A stretch of DNA of 24,732 nt from a virus, in the IMG/VR virus record IMGVR_UViG_3300031566_000348, positions 1 to 24,732 of that record; one strand, given 5' to 3'. The number at the start of each line of letters is the position of its first letter. Position 1 is the first letter of the stretch. The notes under the pieces are model-generated. The model saw only the letters and a program-made list of their open reading frames with translations, was not told the DNA's origin and did not search any database. Made by a program: the position numbers and the translations under genes. This document shows, one piece after another, positions 2,144 to 8,975 of the stretch.

Positions 2144-4030
2144 TTGCAGAACACATTAATCAAATTTGAAGACGCGACGTTTGACGAGCTGGTGACGGCA
2201 CTTCAAGCTGCTGACGACCATTACTTCAACACCGGCGAGACGCTTGTTGAAGATAATGTGTATGACATCGCGAAGAGAGCAGCTTACTCTCAAAACCCTG
2301 CCCACGTTTACTTTACGGGTATTGGTAGTGACGTTCGAGGCGGAAAAATTAAACTTCCGTTTCAGATGGGTTCACTTGACCAAGTCTATGACGGCGAGAT
2401 TGAGGAGTGGATAGCTAAGAACAGCCTTCGCTCAGCAATGGTCCTTATCACGGACAAACTTGATGGCACAAGCGCCATGATTGTTTATGGTGACAACGGC
2501 GAGCTTCAGATTGCTTACAGTCGCGGTAACGGTCTTGAAGGTGCTGACATTACTCGTCACATCAAAAACATTTCTTCCGTACCTCAGAAAGTTTCTGGTC
2601 CGATGGTCGTTCGTGCTGAGGTAATTATTCCAGTCAACAAATTTGATACACTAAAAAGTGTTCAGAAGCGAAGCAGTGGCGACGATTATAAAAATCCTCG
2701 TAACGCTGTTGCAGGAATTATGAATTCCAAAACAAACAAAACAGCTGCCTACGATTACATTGATGTTGTTGCTTACGAAGTAGTCGGCAACACTTGGTCA
2801 AAGCAAGGTCAGCTTGAAAAATTGCAACGCGAAGGATTCATAACACCTGCTTATGTTCTTTGGGTTGGTAACGATTTCAACGATTCAGACCTGACTGAAT
2901 ACTTAAACCATCGTCGTGCAACGTCGATGTACGAGCTCGATGGTGTTGTTCTCGATGCAAACGCCGAGGACGTTCGTTCGCGAATGAACCCGACAAAGAC
3001 GACACTGAACCCTGCTTACGCTGTCAAGTACAAAGTAGCAAGTGCTGATAACGAAAAGAATGTTCGTGTTATCGAAGTTGAATGGAACGTATCAAAGCAC
3101 GGTTATTTGAAGCCACGTGTGCGTATCGAGCCTACAGATTTGATGGGAGTTACAATTCAACACGCCACCGGTTTTAACGCGAAGTTCATTAAAGAGAATA
3201 GTATTGGTAAGGGCGCGATCATCAAGATCACACGATCTGGTGATGTTATTCCGTTCATCCTAAAGACAATCTCTCCTGGACAACTCGAACTGCCGAAAGA
3301 CGCAGTGTGGAATGACACTGGTGTTGACCTTGTAGCAACGAGTGGTGCTGCTGCCGATATCGCATTCTTCAAGCAAGTAGCAGACTTCTTCGCATCTATC
3401 GAAGCACCTCATTTGAAAGACGGTAGCATTCAAAAGATGTTCGACAAGGGGTTCAACACGATAGAGAAAATCATTCAGGCTGAAGAGATTGATTTCATTA
3501 TTGCTCTCGGAAAGAATGGTCAGAAGGTGTATGAGGGGATGACAGAGCGTCTGAACAACATTTACTTCCACGACTTCGTAGGTTCAACACCGTTCTTCGG
3601 CAGAGGTATTGGTAAGCGTAAGTTCAAGAAGTTATTTGAAGCGATTGATAAGAAAGAATTCATGAAGGGTAACCTAAATGGCATCTCTGGTGCAGAAGGA
3701 TTTGACACAAAGACGGCCCTCAAGATTCAAAAGGGATTGCCAAAGTTCATCACTTTTATGAATGAAGTGAAAGACTATATCACAATCGTTGAGCCAAAAG
3801 TTACAGGCATTTCGATGGGTGGTCAGTTGGTTGTGTTCACTGGCTTTAGGGACAAAGGTCTACAAGCTGATGTTGAAGCTAACGGCGGCAAAATGCAATC
3901 GGCAATTAGCAGCAAGACGACTATCCTTGTTGCTGCCAACCCTACTAGCAATTCTACCAAGATGCAGAAGGCACGATCGAACGGAACAATGATAATCGGC
4001 ATTGACGACTTCAAGGAAATGTTGCGATGA
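2144..4030 (+). CDS. ligA: NAD-dependent DNA ligase (LigA family), zinc finger lost
   Basis: It seals nicks using NAD+ through a lysyl-AMP intermediate. The start is TTG with AAGGAG at 2131-2136 upstream; no ATG lies nearby. In order: the Ia domain (VEDNVYDIAKRAAY, about 35-48), LPFQMGSLDQV at 71-81, the catalytic Lys105 in DKLDGTSAMIVYG, RNAVAGIMNSK near 186, an OB fold around 300-380 (ITRSGDVIPFIL), helix-hairpin-helix repeats at about 430-540, and a C-terminal BRCT domain (GGQLVVFTGFRDKG to the end). At 628 residues it is slightly shorter than bacterial LigA (about 670). The four-cysteine zinc finger expected after the OB fold is absent; that position reads AVWNDTGVDLVATSG. It has its own promoter and heads a run of overlapping small genes. 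Confidence 0.95.
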   Translation: MQNTLIKFEDATFDELVTALQAADDHYFNTGETLVEDNVYDIAKRAAYSQNPAHVYFTGIGSDVRGGKIKLPFQMGSLDQVYDGEIEEWIAKNSLRSAMVLITDKLDGTSAMIVYGDNGELQIAYSRGNGLEGADITRHIKNISSVPQKVSGPMVVRAEVIIPVNKFDTLKSVQKRSSGDDYKNPRNAVAGIMNSKTNKTAAYDYIDVVAYEVVGNTWSKQGQLEKLQREGFITPAYVLWVGNDFNDSDLTEYLNHRRATSMYELDGVVLDANAEDVRSRMNPTKTTLNPAYAVKYKVASADNEKNVRVIEVEWNVSKHGYLKPRVRIEPTDLMGVTIQHATGFNAKFIKENSIGKGAIIKITRSGDVIPFILKTISPGQLELPKDAVWNDTGVDLVATSGAAADIAFFKQVADFFASIEAPHLKDGSIQKMFDKGFNTIEKIIQAEEIDFIIALGKNGQKVYEGMTERLNNIYFHDFVGSTPFFGRGIGKRKFKKLFEAIDKKEFMKGNLNGISGAEGFDTKTALKIQKGLPKFITFMNEVKDYITIVEPKVTGISMGGQLVVFTGFRDKGLQADVEANGGKMQSAISSKTTILVAANPTSNSTKMQKARSNGTMIIGIDDFKEMLR

Positions 4031-5510: not shown

Positions 5511-6022
5511 AATTAGACGACATAATGGAAAAGAAAGAAGAAGCGAAGCCTGGCACATACGCGGGTGTGCGTTTTGATACGGACACAATTAAGCGTATAA
5601 AAGAATTTGCAAAGGCATATAAAATTCCTGAACGACTGCCGTCGGATAAGCTTCACTCCACTTTACTATACAGTAAAAAACACCTACCTGATTATCAGGC
5701 CGCTGGTGAATATGACAACCCTCTTGTCGGCAAGCCGAAAAGTTTTGATGTGTGGGAATCTCAACCGGATGATGATGGAGTGAAATCAAACTGCCTAATT
5801 CTTCAAATCGATTGCCCAACCCTTGTCGCTCGTCACAAAGAATTAATGGACGAACATGATGCGGAATACGACTTTGATGAATTCAAACCACACGTCACAC
5901 TGTCCTATAATATTGGCGACTTTGATGTGTCAACATTAGACCCCAAAGAGATTGGTGACATTAACATTGCTACAGAATATCAAGAAGAACTGAACGTCGG
6001 TTGGGCAAAGGCAAACACATGA
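5507..6022 (+). CDS. acb1: 2H phosphoesterase, Acb1 / T4 57B-like (candidate anti-CBASS)
   Basis: The two His-x-Thr motifs of the 2H family are plain: H50-S-T52 in DKLHSTLLYSKK and H129-V-T131 in FKPHVTLSYN. Between them stand GKPKSFDVW and ARHKELMDEHDAEYDFDEFKPH, blocks that I recall from T4 57B (Acb1). Acb1 hydrolyses the cyclic oligonucleotide second messengers made by CBASS systems and so blocks abortive infection. At 171 residues it is slightly longer than T4 57B (about 150), with a Lys/Glu-rich N-terminal extension of about 15 residues. It is coupled to DHFR by an ATGA overlap. Substrate is inferred; other 2H enzymes act on tRNA-derived cyclic phosphates or 2'-5' oligoadenylate. Confidence 0.85.
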   Translation: MKLDDIMEKKEEAKPGTYAGVRFDTDTIKRIKEFAKAYKIPERLPSDKLHSTLLYSKKHLPDYQAAGEYDNPLVGKPKSFDVWESQPDDDGVKSNCLILQIDCPTLVARHKELMDEHDAEYDFDEFKPHVTLSYNIGDFDVSTLDPKEIGDINIATEYQEELNVGWAKANT

Positions 6023-6486
6023 TAGAAATTAAAGCACCAAACAATCCAATAATGTCTGCGGTAGTTCGTAATTCAATTTTCCTCGCCGGAAGCATCGAGC
6101 AGGGCAAAGCAGAGAACTGGCAAGAGAGACTTGTTACCGAATTGAAAGATGAAAAATTCTTAATCATCTACAATCCTCGTCGCGACAATTGGGATCCGAC
6201 ACTTGAGCAAACAATAGACAACAAAATTTTCAACGAACAAGTCGTTTGGGAATTAGATCATCTTGAAGAGGCAACCGTCATACCAATGTACTTTCAACCC
6301 GGCACACAATCGCCAATAACTTTGTTGGAACTGGGATTATTCGCCTCCTCCGGTAAGCTGGTTGTGTGTTGTCCGGAGGGATTCTGGCGCAAGGGCAACG
6401 TGGACATCATTTGTAGTGAATACCAAATAGATCAGGTCGATACGCTCGACGAGCTCATTGAATTTGTGAAGAATAAGGTTAAATGA
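6019..6486 (+). CDS. Nucleoside 2-deoxyribosyltransferase-like protein
   Basis: The fold is suggested by SIFLAGSIEQGKAENWQ at 19-35 (strand plus nucleotide-binding loop), YNPRRDNWD at 51-59, a helix with QVVWELDHLEEATVIPMYF, and SPITLLELGLFASSGK at 98-113. In this family the Glu in the last motif (E104) is the catalytic nucleophile. Length, 155 residues, is typical. I chose ATG 6019 because it makes a four-base ATGA overlap with the preceding gene; TTG 6001 is a weaker alternative. Family members swap bases on deoxyribose or hydrolyse nucleotide N-glycosidic bonds. Here it could serve nucleotide salvage, or act on a defence nucleotide given the Acb1-like neighbour; the sequence does not decide. 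Confidence 0.8.
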   Translation: MIEIKAPNNPIMSAVVRNSIFLAGSIEQGKAENWQERLVTELKDEKFLIIYNPRRDNWDPTLEQTIDNKIFNEQVVWELDHLEEATVIPMYFQPGTQSPITLLELGLFASSGKLVVCCPEGFWRKGNVDIICSEYQIDQVDTLDELIEFVKNKVK

Positions 6487-6952: not shown

Positions 6953-6960
6953 TATAAATA
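6953..6960 (+). promoter_or_regulatory. T4-type late promoter (TATAAATA) for the tmRNA
   Basis: An exact TATAAATA followed by CC. In T4 this element spans -13 to -6, which predicts transcription from about 6966, just where the first conserved helix strand of the tmRNA acceptor piece begins. No gene start lies nearby to compete for this promoter. Confidence 0.75.
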
Positions 6961-6965
6961 CCTTT

Positions 6966-7338
6966 AATGATCGTATGATCTAGTTTTAAGTAGGCGTTGC
7001 GGACGCGGCTTCGATGCCGCCACTTCCACCAAGCTGATCTACCAAGTGTAGAAACAGTAACGAGTCACCGAGAGGGGCTTAGCAAATTGGGGGTGAATTG
7101 GTTTCGACGGGGCGATGAAAGATTCAAGGGACGATTTGATTGGTCACATAATGACTAAAAACTATAACTGACAATTCAAAAACAGTTAAAGCCGTAAGCA
7201 ACGTTGTACCTTTCCGTGCGAAAGCTAAGAAAGCCATCAGCAACTTCGGTGGAGCATACGCTCTAGCAGCGTAATTGTCTCAGGGGGGTGACGCCTTCTT
7301 ACCAAATAGTCAGAAAGGGTCACCTCGTGTGGCCCTTT
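6966..7338 (+). ncRNA. ssrA: Circularly permuted (two-piece) tmRNA precursor
   Basis: The 3' acceptor piece precedes the 5' coding piece. Acceptor piece 6966-7031: strand ATCGT 6970-6974, strand GTTGC 6996-7000, GGAC, T-arm GCGGC 7005-7009 / TTCGAT / GCCGC 7016-7020, CACTTCC 7021-7027, then an encoded ACCA to 7031. A spacer of 57 bases (7032-7088) follows. The coding piece starts GGGGGTG at 7089 and continues into GGTTTCGACGGGG, the hallmark tmRNA 5' sequence. GGGGGTG pairs with CACTTCC over all seven positions, and the third pair is G-U, the alanyl-tRNA synthetase identity element. Helix P2 is supported by GCGAT 7112-7116 with GTTGC, and ACGAT 7131-7135 with ATCGT. A pseudoknot-like hairpin TAACTG / CAGTTA precedes the tag frame. 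tmRNA with SmpB rescues stalled ribosomes and adds a degradation tag. The 3' end of the coding piece is uncertain; 7338 includes the terminator stem. Confidence 0.93.
7197..7274 (+). other. tmRNA tag reading frame (about 25 codons, ends AYALAA)
   Basis: The frame that ends at TAA 7272-7274 reads GGAYALAA at its end, matching the C-terminal degron recognised by ClpX in proteobacterial tags. Its start reads SNVVPFRAK if resumption is at AGC 7197; GTA 7194 and GCC 7191 are also possible, because the resume codon cannot be fixed by sequence alone. The neighbouring frame starting at GCA 7198 ends at TAG without a degron and is rejected. The tag is longer than the usual 10-15 residues and basic in the middle. 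Confidence 0.75.
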
Positions 7339-7343
7339 TCTTT
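7314..7343 (+). terminator. Rho-independent terminator after tmRNA
   Basis: AAAGGGTCAC 7314-7323 pairs with GTGGCCCTTT 7329-7338 (10 bp, one G-U pair) around a CTCGT loop, followed by a T-rich tract. It is nearly identical to the terminator at 8020-8048. Confidence 0.9.
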
Positions 7344-7403: not shown

Positions 7404-7997
7404 ATGAAAAATGTATTAATTGGAATTACACTCCTGATGTTGGCACAGACATCTTTTGCAGAAGGCATCGCGCAAGCAGTTGACGGCCTGGAGACAGATG
7501 TTAGCTCGCTCGAAAATCAGGTGGCTTCTCTGCAGACTAACAACGCAACACTAGAAGCAGTTATCAACACACAAGCAACACTCATCGCTGATCTTACATC
7601 AGTTGTGGATGCTTTAGTTGAACAACAGCGCTGTCACGTTCGTCCAGCAGACCTAACAACCAACGCTAATGGTGATTATCTCGGTGGTGTTGATTGGCGC
7701 GGTTGTGACAAGTCTGGTTTGTCTATGTGGGGTCCTAGGGTTGGTGGCACTGAAACAGAACTTCTAACTAACGCAGACCTACGTGATGTGAATTTCACAT
7801 TAGCAAATCTTATCGGTATCTATGCTAGTGGTGTAAATCTAGATGGTGCGCGTTTTGTAAATGCTAGCCTAGCATACTCTGACTTTAGTGGCGCAACCAT
7901 CTCAGCCTCTACTGTATTCATCAATACAACCTGTCCTGATGAAACTAACAGCGATGTTAATGGTGGAACTTGTGTGGGTCACATGACACCAAACTAA
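7404..7997 (+). CDS. Secreted pentapeptide-repeat protein with coiled coil
   Basis: Residues 1-19 (MKNVLIGITLLMLAQTSFA) form a clear Sec signal peptide with an AxA-like cleavage site (SFA before EG). Residues about 23-75 form a coiled coil with heptad Leu/Val (DGLETDVSSLENQVASLQ). The C-terminal half has pentapeptide repeats of the A(D/N)LxX type: NADLRDVNFTLANLIGIYAS, then GVNLDGARFVNASLAYSDFSG. Four cysteines (RCHV, RGCD, TTCPD, GTCVG) could form disulfides in the periplasm. It has its own promoter and terminator and so looks like a moron-type cassette. A periplasmic or envelope role, for instance altering the infected cell surface, is plausible. DNA-mimic pentapeptide proteins such as Qnr act in the cytoplasm, and the signal peptide argues against that role. 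Confidence 0.85.
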   Translation: MKNVLIGITLLMLAQTSFAEGIAQAVDGLETDVSSLENQVASLQTNNATLEAVINTQATLIADLTSVVDALVEQQRCHVRPADLTTNANGDYLGGVDWRGCDKSGLSMWGPRVGGTETELLTNADLRDVNFTLANLIGIYASGVNLDGARFVNASLAYSDFSGATISASTVFINTTCPDETNSDVNGGTCVGHMTPN

Positions 7998-8327: not shown

Positions 8328-8975
8328 ATGTCTCGGGAAAAGGAAGAGGAAGAAGTCACCAAAGAGGATCTGCCGTATAGTTTTTACCAGCAGAAGATGA
8401 TGTCCCGACAGCTTCACTATTATATTAGTGGACCTATCGAAGATCCTGCAAGGTATACGGAAATGATTCATACAATTCGCTCTGCTTCTCCGAGTGATGT
8501 TATAAACCTGCATCTTAATACTCCTGGAGGATTAGTTTCCACAGGAGTCCAGATAATTAGCGCAATGAGGGCCTCTCAGGGCCACATTGTGACCCACCTT
8601 GAAGGCGAAGCGTGCTCAATGGGCGCTCTTCTCTTTCTAACCGCCGATGAGATGGTGGTGTACGATGACAGTTTGCTAATGTTCCATAACTACAGTGGTG
8701 GTGCATTCGGTAAAGGTCATGAAATGACAGCTTCGATAGACGCAACAAATAAATGGTACTCGAAATTAGCAAACACTGTCTGTGTACCTTTTCTTACTAA
8801 AGAAGAGTTGGCTAGAATATTCGATGGTGCTGATTTGTGGATGTTATCAGATGAGGTTGAAGTCCGTCTTAAAAAGATGGCCAAGATTCTTCTTGAAAAA
8901 GAAACCACACGAAAGACACAACCCAAAAAACTTGGTAAGAAAAAAGTTCCTGTTAGGAAGAAAAAGAATGTATAA
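8328..8975 (+). CDS. clpP: ClpP-like serine peptidase (family S14)
   Basis: The ClpP fold signatures are complete: PGG at 66-68 (oxyanion region, LHLNTPGGLVSTG), nucleophile S97 in GEACSMGALLFL, base H120 in LMFHNYSGG, and probable D169 in GADLWMLSDEV. It is 215 residues, near the ClpP length. An acidic N-terminal extension (REKEEEEVTKED) is present, and the C-terminal helix is followed by an unusual Lys-rich tail (KKLGKKKVPVRKKK) instead of the normal ClpP end. ClpP forms barrels that degrade substrates delivered by ClpX or ClpA. No ATPase partner is visible here, so it might use the host one, act alone, or process capsid proteins. AAGGA precedes the ATG. A tmRNA lies about 1 kb upstream. 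Confidence 0.9.
   Translation: MSREKEEEEVTKEDLPYSFYQQKMMSRQLHYYISGPIEDPARYTEMIHTIRSASPSDVINLHLNTPGGLVSTGVQIISAMRASQGHIVTHLEGEACSMGALLFLTADEMVVYDDSLLMFHNYSGGAFGKGHEMTASIDATNKWYSKLANTVCVPFLTKEELARIFDGADLWMLSDEVEVRLKKMAKILLEKETTRKTQPKKLGKKKVPVRKKKNV

Follow-up and report, generated by a model that had tools for sequence, protein, structure and literature searches.

A circularly permuted two-piece tmRNA gene with a 34-codon tag frame in a putative T4-like jumbo phage

The stretch of viral DNA that we analysed (hereafter the window) is a 24,732-base IMG/VR virus record, a 24.7 kb fragment. It contains, at positions 6966–7343 of the plus strand, a complete circularly permuted two-piece tmRNA gene. 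A search against all Rfam families gave a single match at gathering thresholds, which was with tmRNA_permuted (RF04321) at 6969–7274 (+). This match extended over the full length of the model (1–213 of 213), with a score of 89.6 bits, as compared with a gathering score of 47 bits, and an E-value of 2.6e-16, which by itself settles that the gene is beyond chance. The top-scoring older subfamily model was beta_tmRNA (RF01850), which stayed below its cut-off (59.1 bits for a gathering threshold of 84) and whose alignment took in the 3' region of the gene. A preliminary description of this DNA had proposed a permuted two-piece tmRNA with the acceptor half 5' of the coding half, and a search with a permuted covariance model as a check; the score of RF04321, well over the cut-off, confirmed the proposal. 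The position (6966–7338) and anatomy given there were also correct, except that the terminator reaches about 7343.

From 5' to 3', the gene consists of an acceptor half with an encoded CCA, a 57-nt intervening sequence, a coding half and an intrinsic terminator, all on the plus strand. The acceptor piece (6966–7031; aligned with RF04321 from 6969, its exact 5' end being approximated) contains the 5' strands of P2, the T-arm (7005–7020) with its six-base loop TTCGAT (7010–7015), the 3' strand of the acceptor stem, CACTTCC (7021–7027), and, at its 3' end, the encoded ACCA (7028–7031). The intervening sequence (7032–7088), placed between the encoded CCA and the coding piece and expected to be removed, formed two hairpins on folding (z −1.98). 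The coding piece (7089–7311; delimited with the RF04321 and beta_tmRNA alignments, its 3' end being approximate) starts with the 5' strand of the acceptor stem, GGGGGTG (7089–7095), followed by GGTTTCGAC. It also contains P2 strands at 7120–7124 and 7131–7136, and a PK1-type stem formed by 7140–7146 with 7152–7158 (fold z −2.42). Folding further predicted an intrinsic terminator hairpin with a T-rich tail at 7313–7343 (−15.4 kcal/mol, z −3.12), which was equalled by 1 of 200 shuffles.

The seven acceptor pairs (GGGGGUG/CACUUCC), among which is the G3-U70 pair, form only across the joint of the two halves, as the preliminary description had stated. We compared 129 distinct permuted genes taken from viral and bacterial DNA: every one of them had the seven pairs, G3-U70 was invariant, and pairs 4–6 showed compensating changes. 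This census is supportive rather than independent evidence, because the loci were chosen partly by their acceptor region. The two P2 segments that had been proposed to pair between the halves are also present, GAUCGU (6969–6974) pairing with ACGAUU (7131–7136) and GAUCU (6977–6981) with AGAUU (7120–7124), and the Rfam alignment shows one mismatch within the P2 region. The pairing energy between the acceptor and coding pieces, taken alone, was no better than that of shuffled sequence, and the support for P2 therefore comes from the Rfam model.

The gene is preceded by a T4-type late promoter motif, TATAAATA, at 6953–6960 (+). The number of these motifs in the window (2, for 1.13 expected) was not above chance and was therefore not taken as evidence. 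As to its placement, 10 of the 127 loci with a permuted tmRNA had TATAAATA at 50–130 nt on the 5' side of the acceptor end, versus a background of 0.5% (P about 1e-9 if the 127 loci are treated as independent). The loci with the motif include those of the relatives L163, L165 and L168. This positional enrichment makes late transcription of the window tmRNA likely.

The tag reading frame (7170–7274, +) comprises 34 codons and a stop codon: DNSKTVKAVSNVVPFRAKAKKAISNFGGAYALAA. The resume codon, GAC at 7170, was placed by alignment with the genes of L176, XacN1 and L137 (the L049 gene), as well as by the Rfam alignment, and it shares one open frame with the stop codon TAA (7274), also placed by comparison. 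A 27-residue tag starting at GCC 7191 was dropped, since the alignment with L176, XacN1 and L137 sets the resume codon at GAC 7170. The predicted peptide begins with Asp and ends with ALAA, an ending of the LAA type, like that of most phage tags that we collected. Its length is about three times the usual one: tags had 10–14 residues in 114 of 123 other permuted genes (distinct and called by ARAGORN), and the frame is about 72 nt longer than in the relatives. The tags of jumbo relatives called by ARAGORN had 10–13 residues (ANDAFYGEMRLAA, ANDSAFAMAA, ANSENYALAA, ANDENYNVAMVA and ANEGNFRLAA). Other long viral tags were those of L045 (29 residues), L103 (28 residues) and L049 (28 residues), the last of which also begins with DN. 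By reading, the viral permuted tmRNAs of L110 and L127 appear to have longer tags than usual too, and some of the tags in this group of five have a phenylalanine and arginine core recalling cyanobacterial tags. A search of the window tag peptide against phage records gave no match. A cyanobacterial origin was considered for this tag, its core NVVPF resembling ANNIVPFARKAAPVAA (L185), but this short match was noticed after the fact and was set aside as a weak lead.

ARAGORN, which had also been suggested as a check, called no tmRNA in the window, where the T-loop has six bases instead of seven on a stem of five pairs. Eleven other collected genes have a six-base T-loop of the same kind, among them chromosomal tmRNAs of Mesorhizobium (L150, L152), which score above 255 bits as alpha_tmRNA. 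The six-base T-loop is thus a natural variant. ARAGORN detected six-base-loop genes closed by U-A (L037, L120, L150), whereas it missed those closed by C-G, such as L014, L064, L089 and L122–L127. This pattern of closure suggests that the six-base T-loop is probably the cause of the miss in the window, and ARAGORN was not retained as an arbiter, since C-G-closed genes elsewhere likewise go uncalled. Surveys based on this usual tool would therefore have a blind spot and probably undercount phage tmRNAs. A permuted tmRNA with a six-base T-loop was seen in L154 (6251–6557), whose contig had been assigned to a Bacteroidetes genome bin; this is possibly a phage contig or a misbinned one.

The genes around the tmRNA include those for T4-type topoisomerase II subunits, primase, DnaB-like helicase and ribonucleotide reductase, and the window also encodes an NAD-dependent ligase, thymidylate synthase, dihydrofolate reductase and RNA ligase. 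Judging from the T4-type genes, the window belongs to a T4-like phage, in agreement with the preliminary description. A nucleoside 2-deoxyribosyltransferase-like protein (6001–6486; PF15891, E 1.5e-33) is encoded in a nucleotide-metabolism cluster upstream of the tmRNA, and a pentapeptide-repeat protein (7404–7997; PF00805, E 1.4e-9) directly downstream of it. No DNA similarity of the window to known phages was found. By primase, the nearest named phages were Xanthomonas phage XacN1 (37% identity) and Stenotrophomonas phages CM1 and RAS14 (34%), which are jumbo phages. The RNA ligase protein retrieved no relatives, and ClpP a single contig (47% identity), without tmRNA. With the topoisomerase large subunit we found 12 viral contigs, of which one had 100% identity and the others had 56–59%. 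These contigs reach up to 350 kb and XacN1 has 384,670 bases, while the window has only 24.7 kb; it probably represents part of the genome of a jumbo phage that is a distant relative of XacN1. A permuted tmRNA scored over the cut-off in 10 of the 12 contigs, the remaining two ending before the site; it preceded the topoisomerase gene by 2.1–3.7 kb (by 3.2 kb in the window). Since all ten relatives that cover the site carry it, the gene is fixed in the lineage as sampled.

A ClpP-like peptidase gene lies downstream of the tmRNA (8328–8975, +; PF00574, E 5.2e-14; PHROG ATP-dependent protease, E 4.6e-57), and its protein matched solved ClpP chains. Such a gene adjoins the tmRNA in L163 too, and the phage of L163 has a short tag (L174) despite this neighbour; any special link between the ClpP-like protein and the tmRNA is therefore putative. 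A search of 12 records of related phages, among them XacN1 and two phages larger than 460 kb but also some fragments, revealed no SmpB gene; the genomes covered were of up to 490 kb, and the same search detected SmpB in ten bacteria used as a control. Host SmpB is thus presumably used. The earlier suggestion that the phage could run its own ribosome rescue accordingly stands as far as the RNA is concerned, but not for a fully independent system.

The preliminary description had not settled whether permuted tmRNAs had been described before in T4-like phages. Such genes have in fact been published for the OM43 phage Melnitz, a myophage whose transcription and replication genes are T4-like, as well as for related marine myophages (PMC9004378). 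In the same work, a 2021 survey of 18,146 genomes found 133 unique phage tmRNAs, of which 53 were of the two-piece form, 50 of these 53 being from marine or aquatic samples (PMC9004378). For huge phages, both tmRNAs and SmpB were reported in a 2020 survey (PMC7162821), and a 2025 tmRNA database lists 79 phage sequences (PMC11915505). Permuted tmRNA genes are common in IMG/VR as well, where our pattern scan found at least 119 stretches with a permuted tmRNA. In view of the Melnitz-type genes and of this number, the window gene is not of a new kind. It differs from that of Melnitz, which is described as being preceded by an early promoter with a glutamine riboswitch (PMC9004378), by its late promoter motif, its 34-residue tag and its XacN1-related jumbo lineage.

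XacN1 itself has a permuted tmRNA (AP018399.1, 37231–37530), which is unannotated in the record, is called by ARAGORN and is not mentioned in the XacN1 paper. Both terminal repeats contain it, with tRNAs as neighbours and a GOLLD RNA about 1 kb further on (tmRNA and GOLLD RNA at 1501–1800 and 2840–3253, respectively, of L132, AP018399.1 35731–39030); its T-loop has seven bases and its tag 12 residues (ANANTFDYALAA). The window tmRNA is near a Clp protease gene instead; the gene run NAD ligase, Clp protease, primase is common to both phages. The IMG/VR relatives (L169–L178) share with the window the position upstream of the topoisomerase gene and, for several of them, the late promoter motif, but have tags of 10–13 residues and intervening sequences of 13–90 nt (34 residues and 57 nt in the window). 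We also observed an unannotated permuted tmRNA in Sinorhizobium phage Phosso (minus strand, 1501–2103 of L133, PV764938.1 348096–351698), with a very long intervening sequence of several hundred bases and no ARAGORN call. The tmRNAs of phages Bxz1, Wildcat and G have the standard one-piece order. Mycobacteriophages Bxz1, Wildcat and DS6A and Bacillus phage G carry tmRNAs that are not listed as permuted (PMC4131195), and that of DS6A has little beyond the tRNA-like domain and is devoid of a tag frame (PMC4131195; PMC11915505), unlike the window gene. New here, as small additions, are the conserved position in a jumbo T4-like lineage, the long Asp-initiated tag and the blind spot in detection.

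Processing, alanylation through G3-U70, delivery by SmpB and EF-Tu, tagging, ribosome release and proteolysis are established for tmRNA. While structure, conservation and position in relatives are direct observations, we infer for the window gene its transcription timing, processing, charging, use of SmpB and tagging. Transcription of the permuted ssrA gene would start late in infection at the T4-type late promoter and stop at the terminator of the gene itself, and the host tRNA-processing enzymes would excise the 57-nt intervening piece, leaving the acceptor and coding RNAs joined via the acceptor stem and P2. The RNA, charged by the alanyl-tRNA synthetase of the host through G3-U70, would be delivered by host SmpB and EF-Tu to ribosomes that had stalled on broken mRNA. 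These would go on translating from GAC and add Ala and the 34-residue tag ending in ALAA; the ribosome would be freed and the tagged product would go to ClpXP-type proteolysis. That this phage-owned gene acts in ordinary trans-translation with host factors is, in our opinion, quite probable, because of the full Rfam match, the complete acceptor stem, the CCA, the open frame ending in ALAA and the terminator, and also because of the conserved site in ten relatives, the shared late promoter motif and the failure to find SmpB in the related records, which fits a use of host SmpB. We counted against it the six-base T-loop, the P2 mismatch, the pairing energy and the approximately threefold tag length.

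Some of these features could also fit other explanations. The phage tmRNA might bind SmpB and mainly compete with that of the host, whose trans-translation would thereby be altered or damped, a decoy role that has been suggested for the tRNA-like-domain-only tmRNA of DS6A (PMC4131195; PMC11915505). A tmRNA cut down to this domain indeed inhibits E. coli tmRNA, perhaps by titrating SmpB (PMC4131195; PMC11915505), and no SmpB was found in the records of related phages. Yet the window gene retains the tag frame, the resume site, the stop codon and the ALAA ending, and the relatives have ordinary tags; as a decoy does not need these features, we consider a pure decoy unlikely. Trans-translation could also work with the long tag setting a phage-specific fate, for instance via the nearby ClpP-like protein. 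The 34-residue Asp-initiated tag, far from the 10–14 residues of most genes, and the ClpP-like gene that closely follows the tmRNA in the window as in L163 are in line with this, but relatives with the same neighbour have short ordinary tags and the window tag still ends in ALAA. On this reading, the T4-like jumbo lineage would keep a late-expressed two-piece tmRNA of its own at a fixed site near a ClpP-like gene, and the tag would have been lengthened in the window phage so as to give tagged proteins a phage-controlled fate instead of ordinary disposal; we regard such a role of the long tag as very doubtful.

Finally, the shortened T-loop, the P2 mismatch and the frame extended by about 72 nt are what one might expect of an ssrA copy captured from a host, now in decay and without function. 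Such a relic is hard to reconcile with the presence of the gene at the same genomic site in all ten covering relatives despite about 57% topoisomerase identity, with the complete acceptor stem, with the occurrence of the six-base T-loop in other viral and in chromosomal tmRNAs and with the lack of an integrase among the window proteins scanned, and seems to us extremely improbable.

The present data extend phage-borne permuted tmRNAs to an XacN1-related jumbo T4-like lineage. The long Asp-initiated tag provides a concrete sequence for asking whether tag length matters. The site is conserved and several phages of the lineage have the late promoter motif, both of which speak for a durable role during infection and not for a gene captured by chance.
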